A stretch of DNA of 21,856 nt from a virus: positions 1-21,856 of IMG/VR virus record IMGVR_UViG_3300020463_002745, one strand, 5' to 3'. Made by a program: the position numbers and the translations under genes. Shown here piece by piece: positions 1-15,107 of this stretch (position 1 is the first letter of the stretch; the number at the start of each line of letters is the position of its first letter). The notes under the pieces are model-generated. The model did no database searches and was not told where the DNA came from. It saw nothing but the letters and a program-made list of their open reading frames with translations.

Positions 1-558
1 AAAAATGATGACAGAAACTATAACGGAGTTTGTAGTACATTTTTAGCAGATGATGTGGAGTCTGGTGGTGAACTTAAAGTATTTTTTATGCCCAATAAAA
101 GTTTTAGATTACCAGATGATGATAGAGATATTATTATGATAGGGCCAGGCACAGGCATAGCACCTTTTAGAGCATTCTTACAAGAACGAGAAGTTCGTAA
201 AAGCACAGGTAAAAACTGGTTATTTTTTGGCGACCAAACTAGAAGTGATGACTTTATATATAAAAGTGAACTTGCTAAATTATTAACTAACGGAACTTTA
301 AATAAATTAGATTTGGCATTTAGTAGGGATCAAAAAGAAAAAGTATATGTGCAACACAAAATGTATGAAAATAAACAAGAGTTTTATGATTGGTTAGAAA
401 ATGGTGCATACATTTATGTTTGTGGAGATGCTACAAGAATGGCTAAGGATGTAGAGGATATGATACTACAGATTGTAAATGAATGTAGTAGCAATGATTC
501 TAAAGAATATCTTACTAAATTAAAAAAAGAAAAAAGATATTTAAGAGATGTATATTAA
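1..558 (+). CDS. cysJ: Sulfite reductase (NADPH) flavoprotein subunit CysJ, C-terminal part (5' end outside window)
   Basis: The reading frame is open from base 1, so the gene starts upstream. The visible 185 residues are the FAD/NADPH-binding ferredoxin-reductase module of CysJ, which passes electrons from NADPH to the CysI hemoprotein for reduction of sulfite to sulfide. Seen: STFLAD near residue 13, the nucleotide-binding GPGTGIAPFRAF, FFGDQ, the NADPH 2'-phosphate-binding SRDQKEKVYVQ, YVCGDATRMAKDVE, and the C-terminus KRYLRDVY, which closely resembles the end of bacterial CysJ. The NADPH pocket residues look intact. The stop overlaps the next start by one base (TAATG), tying it to the downstream small phage genes. 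Assignment to the CysJ C-terminal module is firm. Whether a flavodoxin domain or a cysI gene lies upstream cannot be seen. An NADPH-cytochrome P450 reductase relative is a less likely alternative. Confidence 0.9.
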   Translation, partial: KNDDRNYNGVCSTFLADDVESGGELKVFFMPNKSFRLPDDDRDIIMIGPGTGIAPFRAFLQEREVRKSTGKNWLFFGDQTRSDDFIYKSELAKLLTNGTLNKLDLAFSRDQKEKVYVQHKMYENKQEFYDWLENGAYIYVCGDATRMAKDVEDMILQIVNECSSNDSKEYLTKLKKEKRYLRDVY

Positions 559-746
559 TGGTTGCTGGAATCACAAAAAAATTATTTGAATTTACAGGCA
601 AAGTTGGCAAATGTGATAAAGGACATGTTGTAAAAATACAAGAATCTGGATTTGGATTTTGCGATGAATGTTCTACTGAAGGCGTTTTAAATCATACATT
701 ATGGATACCACCTGATCATGCAATGAAAGTAGAGGAAATAAAATGA
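558..746 (+). CDS. Small zinc-finger-like protein (62 aa), unknown function
   Basis: I do not recognise a family. The protein has a likely metal-binding set C19, H23, C35 and C38 (C-x3-H then C-x2-C), suggesting a compact zinc ribbon. It starts on the A shared with the cysJ stop codon (TAATG) and ends in an ATGA overlap with the next gene, so the three are probably translated together. The tight coupling to cysJ could mean shared expression timing rather than shared function. Confidence 0.7.
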   Translation: MVAGITKKLFEFTGKVGKCDKGHVVKIQESGFGFCDECSTEGVLNHTLWIPPDHAMKVEEIK

Positions 747-934
747 ACGATTTAATTGTTGATATTGAAGACTTAGAAACTGCAATAAATAGTCTTAAGA
801 AATTAAAACATACACCAGAAGTTATAAATGCTATAGTAAAAATAGATGATATAATTGAAAGGAAAAAGATAGAGTTTCATAATTACGAACACCAAATGCA
901 GAGGGAGTATGGATATGGGTATAACCGCACTTAA
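743..934 (+). CDS. Small charged protein (63 aa), unknown function
   Basis: No family is recognised. It begins in an ATGA overlap with the preceding stop, with an AGAGGA ribosome-binding site about six bases upstream. The sequence is highly charged and predicted helical (residues about 8-50), with a Tyr/Gly-rich end. It overlaps the start of the next gene by about 20 bases, consistent with a compact phage operon. Confidence 0.65.
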   Translation: MNDLIVDIEDLETAINSLKKLKHTPEVINAIVKIDDIIERKKIEFHNYEHQMQREYGYGYNRT

Positions 935-2060
935 AGGAAAAAGACTTTCTAAGAAAAAAACTATTGCTCGTAGAAAAACCGTAGGAGCAAAAGCGGCTCC
1001 TATGGATGATTACAAAAAACATAGTGACTTTTTTCATTTTAATGTAGATACAAAAGAATGTGTGAATATTGTTAAAGCACACATTAAGAAGGTGTATAGC
1101 AAGGAAAAATCTAAAGTAATACTTAAAAACAAAGAATATAAATTTGGAAAACAATTTATAGCTGGATACTGTCATTGGATAGCTGAAGGAAAAGAAGCAC
1201 CACAAGATAATGTAAATTGGATGGAAGGATACTTTGAAGAACTATATAACAAAGGATTATCTATTGTAGAGGAAGTAAAAGCAGAAGAAGCTGCTAAACC
1301 TAAGAATGTCTATGTCCCTAGCATTCAAGAACGCATTAAAGAAGCAAGTGGAAATATTATTTCGCATATTGAAGATGAGGTAGATAGATTTTTACAAGAT
1401 CCAAAAAGTTTTAAAAAGTTCGATGTTGTAAAGTTTTTCCGTGCAAAACAAGTAAACCAAGCTCATGCAAGACATATCCGTGCTTTTTATGAAGGTATAT
1501 TAGGTGAATACTTAATGTTGCAAAAGCCTGCTACTCAACAAGATGAACAATTAAGAGAAGGCTATGCACATTTAGGTAAATTAGAAATAAAAAAAGCCGT
1601 TGAATTATTTCAAGGTATAGTAGGAGCATGTGACCTAATTACTGCTGAAAGTAAAGCAACAAGAAAAACTAGATCACCTAAACCTAAAAGTGCTGATAAA
1701 CTAGTTTCAAAAATGAAGTATTGTAAGTCTGATGAGAAATACAAAGTTGCTAGTATAAATCCTGCAGATATAATTGGATGCAACGAATTATGGATATTTA
1801 ATACTAAAACAAGAAAAATTGGCAAGTATATTGCAAATGAACATGATACCTTACAGGTAAAAGGTACTACGTTACAATTTTTCAATGAAAAACAAAGTGT
1901 AGCAAAAACACTTCGTAAACCTGAACAACAACTTGCTGAATTCAATAAAAGTGGTAAAGTACAATTACGTAAGTTTTTAAGTAATATTAAAGGTGTCGAA
2001 ACAAGACTTAATGGAAGATTTAACAATGATACTGTCATACTTAAGGCAGTCAATAATTAA
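915..2060 (+). CDS. Conserved-looking phage protein of unknown function (381 aa)
   Basis: The N-terminus is strongly basic (KGKRLSKKKTIARRKT), suggesting nucleic-acid contact or a disordered tail. The middle (about 150-240) is helical and charged. Residues about 245-262 form a Lys/Arg/Ser/Pro linker. The C-terminal part (about 265-381) looks like a small mixed alpha/beta domain with NELWIFNTKTRKIGKY. The ATG at 915 is chosen over the ATG at 909 because GGGAG at 903-907 lies seven bases before it and only one base before the earlier ATG. The stop codon (2058-2060) overlaps the late promoter of the next gene. It ends the cysJ-linked operon and may belong to either the metabolic or the structural programme. 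I cannot name a function. Confidence 0.75.
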   Translation: MGITALKGKRLSKKKTIARRKTVGAKAAPMDDYKKHSDFFHFNVDTKECVNIVKAHIKKVYSKEKSKVILKNKEYKFGKQFIAGYCHWIAEGKEAPQDNVNWMEGYFEELYNKGLSIVEEVKAEEAAKPKNVYVPSIQERIKEASGNIISHIEDEVDRFLQDPKSFKKFDVVKFFRAKQVNQAHARHIRAFYEGILGEYLMLQKPATQQDEQLREGYAHLGKLEIKKAVELFQGIVGACDLITAESKATRKTRSPKPKSADKLVSKMKYCKSDEKYKVASINPADIIGCNELWIFNTKTRKIGKYIANEHDTLQVKGTTLQFFNEKQSVAKTLRKPEQQLAEFNKSGKVQLRKFLSNIKGVETRLNGRFNNDTVILKAVNN

Positions 2061-2066: not shown

Positions 2067-2087
2067 GTGTATATAAGGATACACTAT
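2064..2087 (+). promoter_or_regulatory. RBS hairpin in front of the neck gene
   Basis: Bases 2064-2072 are the reverse complement of 2079-2087: nine perfect pairs around the loop ATAAGG, which includes most of the Shine-Dalgarno AAGGA. The first two bases of the AUG are in the stem. The left arm overlaps the late promoter and would be missing from transcripts starting at about 2072. Confidence 0.6.
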
Positions 2088-2841
2088 GGCAACACTAGCA
2101 AGTTTAAGATCAGACACAGTAGATTACATTCGCTATCGCTTAGGCGATGGTATGGTAGACGTTGAACTGGATCCCAGTCATTATGATAATGTAATTGATA
2201 AGTCCGTAAAACGTTTTAGACAACGTAGTCAAAATGCATATGAAAGTTCTTATGTGTTTTTGAGTGTTGTAAAAGAGCAACAAGAATATACTTTGCCTGA
2301 TGAAATAGAAGAAGTAAGACAGGTATTTAGACGTAGTGTTGGTAGTGGTAGTAACGAAACTGGTACACAATTTGAACCATTCGAAGCCGCTTTCCAAAAT
2401 ACTTACTTATTACAAAGTGGACGTATAGGCGGCATGGCTACGTATGAAATGTATTACCAGTATCAGGAACTGAGTGCTAGGCTTTTTGGTGGATTTGTTA
2501 ATTTTGAATTTAATCCAGTTACAAAAGTTATAACTGTATTAAGAAAATTTAGTGCCAGTGGCGAAGTACTAGTGTTATGGACATATAATCTACGTCCTGA
2601 AAGTAGACTATTACAAGATAGACATGCAGGACCATGGATACAAGATTATGCTTTAGCCCTAGCAAAATATACACTTGGCGAAGCAAGAAGTAAATTTAGC
2701 ACTATTGCAGGACCACAAGGTGGAACAAGTTTAAATGGTGATTCATTAAAAGCAGAAGCACAAGTTGAAATAGATAAACTTGATGAAGAATTACGTAATT
2801 ATGTGGACGGATCAGATCCACTTTCATTTATAATTGGCTAA
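2086..2841 (+). CDS. 13: Neck protein, gp13-like
   Basis: 251 residues. The pattern (N-terminal helix with YIRYRLGDG and VDVELD, FRQRSQNA, YTLPDEIEEVRQVFRR, a central beta-rich part with LFGGFVNFEFNP, then GPWIQDYALALAKYTLGEARSKF, AGPQGG and a final DPLSFIIG) is that of the neck or head-closure protein conserved in marine T4-like myoviruses and usually called gp13. In T4 the neck proteins gp13 and gp14 close the filled head and connect it to the tail. T4 gp14 is the closer length match (about 256 aa), so the number is less certain than the class. The ATG follows AAGGA by six bases. The gene has its own late promoter and leads a block with gp1. Confidence 0.65.
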   Translation: MATLASLRSDTVDYIRYRLGDGMVDVELDPSHYDNVIDKSVKRFRQRSQNAYESSYVFLSVVKEQQEYTLPDEIEEVRQVFRRSVGSGSNETGTQFEPFEAAFQNTYLLQSGRIGGMATYEMYYQYQELSARLFGGFVNFEFNPVTKVITVLRKFSASGEVLVLWTYNLRPESRLLQDRHAGPWIQDYALALAKYTLGEARSKFSTIAGPQGGTSLNGDSLKAEAQVEIDKLDEELRNYVDGSDPLSFIIG

Positions 2842-2853
2842 CATGAGGCTTAA

Positions 2854-3543
2854 ATGATAATAGGAATATGCGGATTAATAGGTTCGGGCAAAGGTACTGT
2901 CGCGGATATATTAGTTGCGGAAGGTTTCAAAAAACTAAGTTTTGCTGACAAACTGAAAGATGGTGTAGCCAAAGTTTTTGGGTGGGACAGAAATTTACTC
3001 GAAGGCGATACTGCTAAAAGTAGAAAATGGCGTGAACAACGAGATCCTTTTTGGTCAAATGAAACAGGTCGATTAATTACACCGAGAATAGTATTACAAG
3101 AGTTTGGAACAGACTGTATGCGTAATGGGTTTGATAAAGGAATCTGGGTAAGTTTACTTAAAAAACAAATGCTAGAAAATCCAGATGACTACGTTATTCC
3201 AGATGTTAGATTTACAAATGAGCAGGACATGTTACGTAGCATTGGTGGCGAAGTATGGCAAGTAAGACGTGGAGAGAAGCCATTATGGTGGGCTACTGCA
3301 ATAAATGTTAACAAAGCCAATCTTAGTAACGATCAAGTAGATACTATGCAAATTATGTTTAATGATGTTCATACTAGTGAATGGAAGTGGGTAGCGTCTG
3401 ATGATAAGTTTGATGTAATTATTGAAAACAATGAAACTTTACAAAATCTTAAACATCAGGTTTTAGGTCACCTCGATTCCAACCAAACTTTATCAACTCC
3501 TGGTTGCAATTTAGACATACGGTTTTCAGATTACGGTTGCTAA
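2854..3543 (+). CDS. 1: Deoxynucleoside monophosphate kinase, gp1-like
   Basis: 229 residues. The protein phosphorylates dNMPs to dNDPs for phage DNA synthesis. A P-loop GLIGSGKGT lies at residues 7-15. It is followed by LSFADKLKDGVAKVFGWDR, RKWREQRDPFW, TPRIVLQEFGTDCMR, and the lid and base region VIPDVRFTNEQDMLR with VWQVRR, as in phage T4 gp1-type kinases. The last part DVIIENNETLQNLKHQV is the usual end of the fold. About 26 further residues run antisense through the end of the minus-strand gene, so the gene may have been extended past an older stop. It sits 12 bases after the neck gene, so both are probably on one late transcript. Confidence 0.88.
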   Translation: MIIGICGLIGSGKGTVADILVAEGFKKLSFADKLKDGVAKVFGWDRNLLEGDTAKSRKWREQRDPFWSNETGRLITPRIVLQEFGTDCMRNGFDKGIWVSLLKKQMLENPDDYVIPDVRFTNEQDMLRSIGGEVWQVRRGEKPLWWATAINVNKANLSNDQVDTMQIMFNDVHTSEWKWVASDDKFDVIIENNETLQNLKHQVLGHLDSNQTLSTPGCNLDIRFSDYGC

Positions 3544-3778
3544 CATTATTTAAATTTCCATCAATGTAAAAAACAATAACTTGACTTCTCATAACAGGCT
3601 TAAATCCACAAGCCTCACATTTTCTTTTTAATTTATATCCACTATCAACCCATAATGGTTTCACAGGCTTATGTAATTTTAAGCATTGTTCACATTTACG
3701 CCTATAATATATTTTATTACCTTTGTAATAATTTACTGCCTTAGGACGTTGCCCACATTGTTTACAAACCGGTCTCAT
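3449..3778 (-). CDS. Zinc-binding, degenerate HNH-like phage protein
   Basis: About 110 residues with four CxxC pairs, enough for two zinc sites (CKQC, CEQC, CEAC, CLNC). The C-terminal half reads FYIDGNLNNVSNRNLKTVCLNC. This follows the HNH pattern of an acidic/histidine strand, a conserved Asn, NL and then CxxC, but a Tyr stands where the catalytic His is expected. It may therefore bind DNA without cutting it. Related small proteins occur in marine T4-like phages. The ATG at 3778 gives the start MRPVC. A GTG at 3793 is possible but lies only three bases after AAAGG. The gene is on the opposite strand from its neighbours and its 3' end overlaps the kinase by 95 bases. No clear promoter is seen. 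Confidence 0.7.
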   Translation of the reverse strand: MRPVCKQCGQRPKAVNYYKGNKIYYRRKCEQCLKLHKPVKPLWVDSGYKLKRKCEACGFKPVMRSQVIVFYIDGNLNNVSNRNLKTVCLNCNQELIKFGWNRGDLKPDV

Positions 3779-3841
3779 ACATGTATTTAACACGGACCTT
3801 TAAAGGGATATGACAAAATAGGTGTTTTTTAATGTGGTGTG

Positions 3842-3886: not shown

Positions 3887-6800
3887 ATGGCACTTATATC
3901 ACCAGGCGTAGAAGTTACAGTAATAGACGAAAGTAATTATACTCCTTCTACTGCAGGTACAGTAGCAACAATTGTTATTGCAACTGCAGAAAATAAAACG
4001 AGTGGAACTGGCTCAGGAACAGCATCAGGAACGACTGCCGCAAATGCAGGAAAAACTTTTTTAATTGGAAGTCAAAGAGAATTAACAAGTACATTTGGAA
4101 ATCCAACTTTTTATAATACTGCAGCGGGCACACCAATTAATGGATACGAATTAAATGAATATGGATTAATGGCAGCTTATAGTCTATTAGGTGTAAGTAA
4201 CCGTGCTTACGTAATGCGAGCAGATGTTGATTTAGGAGAATTAGTAAGCAGTACAAGTAGACCATTAGGACAACCAACAAATGGAACAATATGGTGGGAC
4301 GTTTCTGCAGATACACGTTGGGGAATTTTTGAATGGAACGGAAGTACAGGATCATTTACAAATAAGGTCCCAACTGTAATAACAAGTACAAGCGATTTAG
4401 ATGGCGGAGTTCCTAAAACTTCAATTGGTGCAATAGGTGATTATGCACTAGTTGCAACAAATGTTAGTAACCCTGTATATTATAAGAATCGTGCAAATGC
4501 TTGGGTACTAGTAGGTAGTGCAAGTTGGCAAATTGCTCATGCAACTATTGCTGGAACTGTAGCAAGTCCTAGATTTACACAAGGACATAGTATTACTATA
4601 AATGGTACAACTGTAACAATGGTAGGAAGTACCGTAACTGAATTAAAGACTAGTATTAATAATGCAAGTATTACTGGTGTTACTGCTGATGTGCATAACA
4701 ATAAAATCGAAATATATGCAAATAGCACCGCAGTTGGTGTAGACAGTGTTGCAGATGGCAAAATAGTTTTAGCAAATGCTAGTGGAAGTATTTTGACAGA
4801 CGCAGGATTAAGTGCAGGAACATATGCAAGACCACTTATAGCACAAGATCCGCACTATACCGTACCTGCATTTAAATCAACAGATACAGTACCTAGACCA
4901 ACAGGAAGTGTATGGGTCAAAACAACATCCAGTAATTTAGGTTTTTTAGCAGATGTAAGCACATATAGTACAACAACTGCATCATTTACTGCAAGTACTG
5001 CACCTGCTTATACTAATGATGTTACAGCACTTAAAAATTTAGATGCAACAGGCGGTAAAGCAATTAAGGCAGGCACATACTACGTACAATATGATGTTAC
5101 TGAAAATGATACATTAACTTATAAACTTTTCCAAAGATATAGTGCTGGTATATTAAGTGTAACAGGATTAATAAATTCAGCTACGCCATTGACTGCAGGA
5201 AATAAATTTACTATAAGTGCAAGTAGTGCAAATAGTACAACACTAAGCACTGCTGTAGAAGTTACATTAAGCGGAACATCGATTGCAAGTTTAGCAAGTG
5301 ATATTAATGCCGCTAATGTTTCTAATGTAAGTGCAAGTGTAGATAGTAGTGGATTTTTGGTAATTACACACGCATTAGGTGGTGTAATAATACTTAAAAA
5401 TACTACAGGTACACCTCTAACAGATGCAGGCATAACAACAAGTATAACAACAAAACAAGTAAGAGCTGGTAACAGTAGTGACTTAATATTAAGTAATTGG
5501 ATTGCTCCTACATACACTGCTAGTATAAGTGCACCAAGTGCAAATCCAACAAATAACACACATTGGTATACAGGCGGTTTTGAAGCAGATATTATGGTAC
5601 ATGATGGCACCATATGGAAAGGTTATCAAAACATTACAGATACAAGAGGATTTGCTTTAGCAAGTACAAGTCCAAATGGCGTAATTTTTAGTTCAACCGC
5701 ACCTACATTACAAAGCGATGATAGTGCTTTAGTAAATGGTGACTTATGGATTGATACAAGTGATTTAGAAAATTATCCATCATTGTATAGAAGAGAAACA
5801 GTAAGTGGCGAACAAAAATGGGTTGTAATTGATAAAACGGACAATACTACAGAAGACGGAATAATTTTCGCAGATGCACGTTTTATGGGCGATGGAACTA
5901 CAGATGTGGTGACTGGTACTATTCCAACAACAAAAAGTTTATTAACAAGCGACTACTTAGATATTGATAGACCAGATCCTACAATTTATCCACGTGGTAT
6001 GTTATTGTTTAATACAAGACGCAGTACATACAATGTAAAGAAATTTAGGTCTGATTACTTCAGTAGAACAAATTTTAGTGATACAACTTTATATCCAACA
6101 CTTCCTACTGAGAAGGATGCATGGGTAACAGAAAGTGGTACTACTTTTGGACGTAAGGCAGTAAGGACAGTAGTAGTAAATGCTATGAAGTCTGCTTTAG
6201 ATGCTAGTGCAGAATTACGTGAAGATGCAAGGACTTTTAATGTAATTGCATCTCCTGGTTATCCTGAGCTAATTAGCAACATGGTCAGTTTAAACAATGA
6301 TAGAAGACAAACTGCATTTGTTATAGGTGATACACCGCTAAGATTAGCCGCAACAAGCACTGCATTAGAAAACTATACCACTAACGCAGCAAATGCCTCT
6401 GATAATAATGAAGATGGATTAGTAACTAGTGATCCTTATCTAGCAGTATTTTATCCAAGTGCAACAACAAATGATTTAAATGGTAATACAATTGTAGTAC
6501 CGCCAAGTCATGCAATGTTAAGGACTATTGCAAGAAGTGATGATATTAGTTTTCCATGGTTTGCACCTGCAGGTACACGTCGTGGACTAGTTGATAACAT
6601 AGCAAGTATCGGATATATAAATTCAACAACTGGAACTTTTGTTACAGATAACATACGTGAAAGTGTTAGAGATACATTATATACAAATAGAGTAAATCCA
6701 ATTGCTTTCTTTGCAGGAAGCGGAATCTTAAATTATGGTAACAAGACTAGAGCCGCAAGTACAAGTGCTTTAGACCGAATAAACATATCACGCTTGACAG

Positions 6801-11660: not shown

Positions 11661-12530
11661 ATGCCTATAGTAATTAAACCAAAAATGAGTAAAATGGACA
11701 AAATGGGAGCCGGCGGAATGGACATTGGTCGTACACCTTCTCTTAATACTCAAGATTACGATATACCAGGAATAGAAAAAAATCCTACACTAAAAAAGAA
11801 AATGAAGAAAATGGCAGGCAAGATGGAAGATATGCGTGAATATATGGATATATTTGATGGTATTGAAGAAGATACAATTGAAGAGGGTGCATTTAAAGAC
11901 ATGGAAATTGATGTCGAGGATGGCATGAGCAAAGAAGAGTTTGTAAAAGAATATCCGGGTATGGGTGACGAGTACGATAAAATTAAAAAAGAAATCATGG
12001 ACAGAGCAGATGAGACCATTGATCCAGATGAAGATATGCAAGAACAAGATATAGAAATGGAAGATGATTGTGGATGCGACCAAGAAGCAGTAGACGCAAT
12101 GGTATCAGTACCAGTACAAGAACTACAAGATATATTACAACTAGCAGGTTATGAAAACTACGCAGAAAAAATTGCTGAGTATGCCAATGAGCCTGCAGAA
12201 GATTATATGAGTCCTGAAGATCAACTTATTGGATTAAGTGGTGGATTAAATAGACCTAAGAAAAGTTATCCAGCAAGTGCACCTGGTGATAATCCAATGG
12301 ATCAAGAACCACGCGAAGTTGAAGAAACTATGGAAGCAGTAGAAGAAAAACTTTACAAAAGTTACAAAGATTTCTTAGAAGAGCAAGAAATAAAAGTCGA
12401 TGAAAAAATAACTAGAGGTACTGGCAAAAAAGGTTTAGAGAAAAGTTTAGATAAACTTTATGGACCAAAAAAAGGCATGAAGAAAGAAGAAAATACAACA
12501 GAAGAGCGTATGCCTAAGATGCCAAAATAA
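11661..12530 (+). CDS. Acidic scaffold-like phage protein (289 aa)
   Basis: The ATG at 11661 is preferred over 11637 because AAGGA at 11649-11653 lies seven bases before it; the upstream ATG overlaps the LysM gene without such a site. The protein is rich in Asp, Glu, Met and Lys: a basic N-terminus, an acidic centre (IEEDTIEEG, DPDEDMQEQDIEMEDDCGC), a small helical segment VSVPVQELQDILQLAGYENYAEKIAEYA, and a Lys-rich end. A segment KSYKDFLEEQE near residue 233 resembles the capsid-targeting peptide of T4 internal proteins. Composition suggests a scaffold or internal head protein; no family is recognised. It converges with, and overlaps by 17 bases, the minus-strand gene. Confidence 0.7.
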   Translation: MPIVIKPKMSKMDKMGAGGMDIGRTPSLNTQDYDIPGIEKNPTLKKKMKKMAGKMEDMREYMDIFDGIEEDTIEEGAFKDMEIDVEDGMSKEEFVKEYPGMGDEYDKIKKEIMDRADETIDPDEDMQEQDIEMEDDCGCDQEAVDAMVSVPVQELQDILQLAGYENYAEKIAEYANEPAEDYMSPEDQLIGLSGGLNRPKKSYPASAPGDNPMDQEPREVEETMEAVEEKLYKSYKDFLEEQEIKVDEKITRGTGKKGLEKSLDKLYGPKKGMKKEENTTEERMPKMPK

Positions 12531-13095
12531 TTTCGATTTGATCTTTTAGTAATTCAAAAATATAGCGATGTCCGTCATTATTAGGATGTAGGTGATCAGC
12601 TATATATTTTGACTTAGCGTTTTCATTAGTTCCTGTAGCACCTAATTTTTCACACATACCTGGCACACAATCAACGTGCATATATCTTAAACTATTTACT
12701 TTACAAGTCATTTCAACTATGTGTTTTGGATACCATGTGTGTAGTTTTTCAACATATCCATCACGTTCATGTTGATTGACTAGATAATCTCTACAACTAT
12801 CTATTAATGCACTACCAGGTTTTTTCCCTTGTACATAATTCATATGCTCCCATTGTTGTGTTCTATTATTAAACCAACTTTGTCTGTTTGGGTGACTCCA
12901 TCCAAATATAATAAAATCCTTTGGCGTGATATCTTTATATGTTTCACAAAATTTTAAAGCAATATAAGGATTACTTGCACTACTTTCACTTAGTTGTATA
13001 AACTTAAAATTAAACTGTTCTGCTATTAATTGTCCATAACAAATGTCAGCTTCTTCGCCTAAACTTACACTACAACCATATTGAAAAAGTTTCAT
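12514..13095 (-). CDS. SGNH/GDSL-like hydrolase
   Basis: 193 residues. Block I reads GCSVSLGE at 7-14 (usual GDSxxxG, with Cys for Asp), giving S9 as candidate nucleophile. GWSHPNR at 65-71 may represent the central blocks, and DHLHPNNDGH at 167-176 is a good block V with D167 and H170. SGNH enzymes cleave esters; in phages they could trim acetyl groups from surface glycans, but the substrate cannot be read. The ATG at 13095 is chosen over a GTG at 13107 because it starts at the first beta strand. A perfect TATAAATA lies upstream on this strand. Together with the HNH-like gene it is one of two minus-strand genes here, suggesting later acquisition. Confidence 0.75.
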   Translation of the reverse strand: MKLFQYGCSVSLGEEADICYGQLIAEQFNFKFIQLSESSASNPYIALKFCETYKDITPKDFIIFGWSHPNRQSWFNNRTQQWEHMNYVQGKKPGSALIDSCRDYLVNQHERDGYVEKLHTWYPKHIVEMTCKVNSLRYMHVDCVPGMCEKLGATGTNENAKSKYIADHLHPNNDGHRYIFELLKDQIEIILAS

Positions 13096-13118
13096 ATTAG
13101 AGACCACTTTAATTGAGA

Positions 13119-13132: not shown

Positions 13133-13557
13133 TGAGATTTATAAGGGACGAGTATGTAACGGTTTTTCGTGAATGTTTAATCGAAACTAGTCGACAAGAA
13201 GGCTTTACGTTGCCAGAAGATATAGAAGCATATGTGGCTATTCTTCTCGGCTCGTTTATAGACGAACCGGACTTTTTACCCAGTCCTACTTTTACAGAGG
13301 CATACATAAAAGGAACAATGCCATCAAAAGATTTAGCAGATGTTTGTTTATTTGTAAGAGGAGTATTTCCTAAATATGGTGATAAAAACTACCTTACTAC
13401 CATAGGAAAAAGTAGTTATGATAATGCAAGTAAGCAATTACGTATGCGTATGTTCGAAGATATTTCAAACAACTTTGAAACAGTAGTAAAAGTAATACGT
13501 ATAAGTACTAGACCTGCAAAACTATATTTTAAGGATGTTACATGGTTAAACCATTAG
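13132..13557 (+). CDS. Terminase-adjacent conserved phage protein (141 aa), unknown function
   Basis: The protein has a helical N-terminus (YVTVFRECLIETSRQEG, LPEDIEAYVAILLGSFID), a central SPTFTEAYI, then LADVCLFVRGVFPKYG and SYDNASKQLRMRMFEDISNNFETVVKVIRI. Proteins with the CLFV.GVFP.YG and SY motifs accompany terminase genes in many phages, with no established function that I know. By position it could also be a small terminase (gp16), although the gene at 9953 fits that better. There is no Shine-Dalgarno upstream; the late-promoter box ends five bases before the ATG. It overlaps gp17 by 16 bases. Confidence 0.7.
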   Translation: MRFIRDEYVTVFRECLIETSRQEGFTLPEDIEAYVAILLGSFIDEPDFLPSPTFTEAYIKGTMPSKDLADVCLFVRGVFPKYGDKNYLTTIGKSSYDNASKQLRMRMFEDISNNFETVVKVIRISTRPAKLYFKDVTWLNH

Positions 13558-15107
13558 ATCAAAATTTAACAAAAAAAGCATACAAAAAAGAAAAGTTTTC
13601 AAAAGAACAACTAGCAGAATTTGCAAAATGTGCTCATCCTAAAAAAGGTGTGTTTTATTTTATGGATAATCATTTTGCTATACAACATCCTACACAAGGA
13701 CGTATGCAATATAAAGCATATGAATATCAGCATAAATTATTAGATATATATCATAACTACAGATTCAACATAAACATGTTGCCAAGGCAGACTGGTAAAA
13801 GTACAACTGCGGCAGGTTACTTATTATGGTATGCAATGTTTGTGCCAGATAGTGTAATACTAATTGCGGCACACAAATACGCTGGCGCTCAGGAAATTAT
13901 GCAACGTATCCGCTATGCTTATGAACTTTGTCCTGATCATATACGTGCTGGTGTAACTAGTTATAATAAAGGAAGTATAGACTTTGATAATGGTAGTAGA
14001 ATTATAGCACAAGCAACTACAGACAATACAGGAAGAGGTATGTCTATTACATTACTATACTGCGATGAGTTTGCATTTGTTAGACCTAGCATTGCTAAGG
14101 AATTTTGGACAAGTATATCACCTACACTAGCAACAGGTGGGTCTGCAATTATTACAAGTACACCTAACAGTGATGAGGATCAGTTTGCAACTATATGGAG
14201 AGATGCAAATAAGACATATGATCAAAATGGTGTTGAGCAAGACTTAGGTGTAAATGGATTTAAACATTTTCAAAGTTATTGGTGGGAGCATCCAGATAGA
14301 GATGAGGAATGGAAAGCAGAAGAATTACAACGTATTGGCGAAGAACGTTTTAGACGTGAACATGAATGTGAATTTATTATTTACGATGAAACACTAATTG
14401 ACAGTTTGGCATTAACAAATTTACGAGGTATTGAACCATTATATAGACACGGCACTGTTCGCTGGTATAAAAAAATTGACAGACAAATGACATACCTTGT
14501 AGGACTAGATCCTAGTTTAGGAACAGGAGGTGACCCGGCGGCTATAGAAATATTTGAAATACCTAGTATGGAACAAGTAGGAGAATGGAGTCATAATAAA
14601 ACTCCTATACCACAACAAATTCGTATACTAGTTGACATCAACAAATATTTACTAGACGAAGGTGTAGATACTATGAACATATACTATAGTATGGAAAATA
14701 ACACTATAGGAGAAGCCGCTTTACAAAGTGTAGCAGAAATAGGTGAAGAAAATATTCCGGGTATCTTTCTAAGCGAACCAAAAATCCATGGTAACAGTCG
14801 AATGTATCGTAGAGGATTTAACACAACACACCGTAGTAAAATTAGTATATGTAGTAAGTTTAAAACACTTGTAGAAACTGATAAAGTAAAAGTAAACAGT
14901 AAAATGTTACTTAGTGAAATGAAAAGTTTCATAGCTGCCGGTAATAGTTTTAAAGCCAAAGCAGGCGACACAGATGACTTAGTAATGAGCACTTTACTTG
15001 TAATGCGTATGGCTCAAACACTAAAAAACTATCATCCAGAACTTGAAAACCATATACGAGACGGAGACGACTTTGACCAAGAGCCTATGCCATTTATTAT
15101 GATATAG
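13542..15107 (+). CDS. 17: Large terminase subunit, gp17
   Basis: 521 residues. This is the packaging motor ATPase plus headful nuclease. In the ATPase: Walker A PRQTGKST at 81-88, Walker B LLYCDEF at 171-177 (D175, E176) and the coupling motif TSTPN at about 205-209. In the RNase H-like nuclease: D323 in GLDPSLGTGGDPAA, E385 in SMENNTIGEAA and D478/D479 in GDTDDLVMS. All catalytic positions are present, so it should be active. It is shorter than T4 gp17 (610 aa), mainly lacking N- and C-terminal extensions. AAGGA lies shortly before the ATG inside the previous gene. The stop lies on the late promoter of the following gene. Confidence 0.96.
   Translation: MVKPLDQNLTKKAYKKEKFSKEQLAEFAKCAHPKKGVFYFMDNHFAIQHPTQGRMQYKAYEYQHKLLDIYHNYRFNINMLPRQTGKSTTAAGYLLWYAMFVPDSVILIAAHKYAGAQEIMQRIRYAYELCPDHIRAGVTSYNKGSIDFDNGSRIIAQATTDNTGRGMSITLLYCDEFAFVRPSIAKEFWTSISPTLATGGSAIITSTPNSDEDQFATIWRDANKTYDQNGVEQDLGVNGFKHFQSYWWEHPDRDEEWKAEELQRIGEERFRREHECEFIIYDETLIDSLALTNLRGIEPLYRHGTVRWYKKIDRQMTYLVGLDPSLGTGGDPAAIEIFEIPSMEQVGEWSHNKTPIPQQIRILVDINKYLLDEGVDTMNIYYSMENNTIGEAALQSVAEIGEENIPGIFLSEPKIHGNSRMYRRGFNTTHRSKISICSKFKTLVETDKVKVNSKMLLSEMKSFIAAGNSFKAKAGDTDDLVMSTLLVMRMAQTLKNYHPELENHIRDGDDFDQEPMPFIMI

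Follow-up and report, generated by a model that had tools for sequence, protein, structure and literature searches.

The window, which is the entire IMG/VR record of 21,856 bases, begins inside a reductase gene and continues into phage genes. The features considered here are the following.

1..558, plus strand: 3′ portion of a gene for a CysJ-family diflavin reductase (NCBIfam cysJ, Pfam NAD_binding_1, PDB 1ddg, alignment and tree)
556..560, plus strand: TAATG stop/start overlap between the cysJ-like gene and the 62-aa gene (sequence and overlap table)
558..746, plus strand: small phage accessory gene for a 62-aa putative Zn-ribbon protein, CDKGH...CDEC (97% match in contig L017)
732..747, plus strand: breakpoint, where homology to related phage contigs begins (732–740) and identity to L017 ends (747) (blastn and junction alignment)
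743..934, plus strand: conserved phage gene of 63 aa (95–97% amino-acid identity in L002/L003, 56% in L004–L010)
909..2060, plus strand: conserved phage protein phrog_11903, the phage anchor (profile matches and related contigs)
2086..2841, plus strand: head-tail adaptor, phrog_211 (PHROG match)
2854..3543, plus strand: deoxynucleoside monophosphate kinase (Pfam DNMK, phrog_139)
13542..15107, plus strand: terminase large subunit (TerL), nearest to PA5oct-group jumbo phages (PHROG and TerL comparison)

The open frame at 1–558 (+) encodes 185 residues, terminates in TAA and is open at the contig edge. It contains the end of the FAD module, the NADPH module and a C-terminal RDVY, and scores 267 bits against NCBIfam cysJ (TIGR01931) over model positions 412–597 of 597. 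Because the window is the whole record, the contig edge cuts the gene, and what can be seen is the last third; the N-terminal two thirds (the FMN module and most of the FAD module) fall beyond that edge. The best PDB match is Escherichia coli CysJ (1ddg, E 1.2e-57), and the Pfam match is NAD_binding_1. The motifs GPGTGIAPFR, SRDQKEKVYVQ, YVCGDA and RDVY are mostly invariant in a 16-sequence alignment, in which a single 3-residue in-frame deletion sets the fragment apart from the 15 other sequences. As expected of CysJ, the NADPH-binding module carries the SRxxxK.Y.Q and CGD motifs, and the C-terminal residue is aromatic. A back-translated KRYLRDVY-stop pattern gave one match, with none expected by chance. 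The fold of the fragment is clear from its sequence, and TIGR01931, 1ddg and the alignment agree with the first-pass annotation that a CysJ-family NADPH module with an RDVY end lies in frame beside phage genes.

That annotation had also described start/stop overlaps joining the cysJ-like gene to small phage genes, and both are present: TAATG at 556–560, and ATGA at 743–746, which links the 62-aa gene to the 63-aa phage gene that follows. Other gene pairs of the same phage overlap likewise (overlap table), and AGAG within the LRDVY codons may serve as a ribosome-binding site for the 62-aa gene. The 62-aa gene has a 97% identical copy in a second phage contig, L017, where it precedes a PsiE-like gene, again with an ATGA overlap. 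L017 encodes the phage proteins ATPase and VWA/metallopeptidase (phrog_1297 and phrog_1314), as well as SufE-domain and PsiE-like proteins, and it ends 6 bases inside the 62-aa gene, that is, at most 6 bp from the cysJ/62-aa boundary. Its occurrence in two contexts identifies the 62-aa gene as a phage accessory gene. The encoded protein had no family match in Pfam, NCBIfam and PHROG profile searches, and a bacterial origin was rejected, as 136 SAR116-order genomes gave weak matches alone (best E 0.007). In L017 the PsiE-like membrane protein is encoded at 180–575 and the SufE-domain protein at 5195–5596; a SufE-domain gene is also found in the related contig G001 (79558–79953, in L104).

The source phage is a marine jumbo myovirus. 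Clearly recognisable products are a head-tail adaptor, tail sheath, tail tube, terminase and UvsX-like and ssDNA-binding proteins. The earlier label of 'T4-like' holds in a broad sense, with TerL matching more than 2,500 phage records, but needs narrowing, as the nearest of these are PA5oct-group jumbo phages at 52%. Using the gene at 909–2060, we found 15 related viral contigs, mostly fragments. One of them, the 131.6-kb contig G001, shares 96% identity with the window, beginning at base 738. In the close relatives that reach the site (L002–L010), homology starts at 732–740, which is the end of the 62-aa gene; upstream of this point the relatives have other small genes, and L003, L004 and L008 also have a DNA ligase. 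Neither the cysJ-like nor the 62-aa gene is present in any of the 15 related records, most of them fragmentary, and G001 has a different gene at this position and neither of the two anywhere in its 131.6 kb. Since the relatives differ upstream of 732–740 and lack both genes there, the site is a variable slot, located just 5′ of the conserved head/tail genes.

Several further features of this phage group were observed. A 197-aa gene at 12514–13107 (−) has no PHROG match and by eye resembles small GDSL/SGNH-like proteins of G001 (73952–74614, 78891–79379 and 89202–89918). An open reading frame at 3449–3793 (−), right after the kinase gene, resembles a Cys-rich HNH-type protein, and L007–L010 have about 1 kb extra between the adaptor and kinase genes. 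The segment 16550–16897 matches G012 (L113) twice, which may reflect a local duplication or an assembly error in G012.

The closest cellular matches of the reductase fragment, at 75–76% identity, are full-length CysJ-like proteins from five SAR116-order genomes (G016, G038, G039, G067 and G080), with which the window groups in the tree (UFBoot 99, SH-aLRT 96). These proteins have the flavodoxin, FAD and NADPH layout of CysJ; one of the closest scores 608 bits, below the cysJ equivalog cut-off of 668. In all five genomes the CysJ-like gene lies directly 3′ of gltB, a gene of about 1800 codons for the large subunit of glutamate synthase (its frame is split in G039), and in four of the five a LysR gene comes next. 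No sulfite-reductase hemoprotein (CysI or NIR_SIR) was detected in the SAR116-order genomes tested individually (8/8; 11/11), and controls gave matches. Within the order, no genome belongs both to the 35 that have a strong CysJ-like match and to the 22 that have NIR_SIR. GltD was likewise not found over noise in G038, G080, G123, G018 and G019, all of which have the gltB/CysJ-like pair. The genomes are drafts, so that single absences are weak, whereas a consistent pattern across genomes is not.

Many SAR116-order genomes also encode a short CysJ-like protein of 373–382 aa that lacks the flavodoxin domain, with a LysR gene next to it on the downstream side (L118, L124–L133). An ordinary gltB is found close to the short gene in G016, G031, G039, G064 and G067, and gltD adjoins this gltB in G031, G039, G064 and G067.

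The association with gltB extends well beyond these relatives. Among 83 CysJ-like loci, the partner is gltB in 54, cysI in 21, both in none and neither in 8. In a 90-row tree, in which G028, G042 and G035 carry 'gltB' as a default label, all 21 cysI-linked sequences fall on one side (23 rows), and the window and the gltB-linked sequences fall on the opposite side (67 rows, SH-aLRT 99). Of profile HMMs for the two groups, the gltB-linked one scores the fragment 20 bits above the cysI-linked one. A large gltB, not cysI, adjoins CysJ-like genes in Agrobacterium, Pantoea, Methylomonas, SAR92 and SAR116 (L134–L138, L022–L100). Such loci in many bacteria suggest a glutamate synthase (GOGAT) with a diflavin electron-transfer subunit.

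The phylogeny against CysJ sequences called for in the first-pass annotation therefore goes against its sulfur interpretation: the window lies opposite all cysI-linked sequences. The annotation had proposed a host using CysJI, yet the nearest relatives are gltB-linked and come from genomes without detectable CysI or NIR_SIR; its proposal of phage support for sulfide and cysteine supply is contradicted by the position of the fragment in the gltB-linked clade. With relatives beside gltB, in genomes without a detectable sulfite reductase, a role in nitrogen metabolism is likelier than one in sulfur metabolism, and the sulfur reading is probably wrong. That the fragment is instead a genuine assimilatory sulfite reductase flavoprotein, working with a host CysI and raising sulfide and cysteine supply, we regard as very improbable: its match to the cysJ family and the SufE-domain gene of the phage relatives, which makes sulfur handling not foreign to them, are outweighed by the clade, the missing hemoprotein and the 20-bit HMM difference described above.

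The claim that the gene belongs to a phage genome is partly borne out. We judge it quite probable that the reductase gene is resident in the phage, on the grounds of the gene overlaps at the join, the phage-like codon choice and the presence of the 62-aa gene in a second phage contig. Synonymous codon usage places the fragment with the phage model, by a small margin over the second-best model; of the test pieces, 23 of the 24 from phage were scored as phage, as was 1 of about 100 from bacteria. Residence is unproven because the 96%-identical G001 lacks both genes, and because the evidence comes from one contig, at its edge, with no second viral example among the contigs scanned. These same points favour an assembly or library chimera, in which phage DNA was misjoined, at about 558 or at 732–747, to the end of a SAR116-like bacterial gltB–cysJ-like locus. 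The sequence ATAAAATGAA is shared at the 732–747 join, and the end of L017 falls at the other join (the cysJ/62-aa boundary), possibly a branch point of the assembly. However, a random join would seldom produce an overlap of a stop with a phage start (about 1.6%, by arithmetic, for a start within −4 to +10 nt), the two joins flank the 62-aa gene, which belongs to phage, the codon usage of the fragment is phage-like, and four of the five nearest relatives in cells have the LysR gene downstream. We consider a chimera unlikely, if still a serious alternative. An origin of the window's fragment as a provirus flank is not favoured, as there is no integrase among the window genes and the phage is a T4-superfamily jumbo phage.

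Searches of viral collections gave no other IMG/VR contig with such a reductase (protein and profile scans and a 3′-end DNA pattern) and no long-type GltB; these scans used exact short patterns, may omit records near the window and can thus miss relatives. The sole scan result, at 556–819 of L146 (IMGVR_UViG_3300037294_000357), is a high-GC, truncated end of cysJ that adjoins a CI-like repressor, and is probably flanking host DNA of a prophage that inserted in cysJ or close to it. The CysJ entries in INPHARED (OR844989, OR849986, OR851542, AGRM01000002 and CAKLQH020000002), although listed as phages, look like contigs or clones of bacterial DNA. A literature search of partial coverage, which is not proof of novelty, found no phage-borne cysJ and no gltB/CysJ-type glutamate synthase.

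Judging by gene linkage, the fragment is likely to derive from a GOGAT-type NADPH reductase. Its source was probably a SAR116-order-like alphaproteobacterium. We propose, at about even confidence, that it is the end of a CysJ-type diflavin reductase of the gltB-linked subfamily, carried by the marine jumbo myovirus and likely serving the host GOGAT. After acquisition from such a bacterium, the gene would have come to occupy the variable slot together with the 62-aa gene, the two being read as part of one overlapping gene string. The whole protein, if encoded and made, would pass electrons from NADPH through FAD to FMN and on to the host glutamate synthase or a similar flavin or Fe–S acceptor, and more glutamate could be supplied during infection. 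Diflavin modules can serve several acceptors, and the phage might instead carry a general NADPH diflavin reductase that acts on flavodoxin- or ferredoxin-type or Fe–S proteins, for example in ribonucleotide reduction. The absence of long-type gltB from the viral contigs scanned fits such an enzyme; set against it are the consistent adjacency to gltB in the cellular relatives and the lack of an acceptor gene nearby, and we find it rather improbable. More tentatively, and somewhat short of even confidence, the GOGAT-linked reading can be sharpened: the phage may encode a subunit dedicated to NADPH oxidation in a class of glutamate synthase that is little described and has a CysJ-type diflavin protein in place of GltD, and during infection may thereby steer nitrogen assimilation in marine alphaproteobacteria.

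If truly in the phage, the gene would represent a kind of auxiliary metabolic gene that our scans detected in no other viral contig; it would also point to nitrogen, not sulfur. More generally, the name CysJ, when given by homology, covers two groups of proteins, of which the first is linked to sulfite reductase and the second to glutamate synthase, so that sulfur-metabolism calls based on cysJ only can be wrong, in viromes and SAR116-type genomes alike.

Compared with known systems, the fragment resembles CysJ (TIGR01931; 1ddg) in the sequence of its NADPH module and in the C-terminal RDVY, but its relatives adjoin gltB, not cysI, and occur without detectable CysI. With the gltB-linked reductases of the SAR116 order (G067, G039, G038, G016 and G080) it has the clade, about 75% identity and the domain ends in common; theirs follow gltB and mostly precede LysR, whereas the gene in the window is followed by overlapping phage genes. 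GltD (TIGR01317), the small subunit of standard NADPH-GOGAT, would have the same role as that proposed here, the delivery of NADPH electrons to GltB, but belongs to a protein family separate from the CysJ-like one and is not found over noise in several genomes bearing the pair. Among phage sulfur auxiliary metabolic genes, the available portion of one source lists dsr and sox (PMC8190135), which the reductase gene would resemble in being a host-derived redox gene in a phage.
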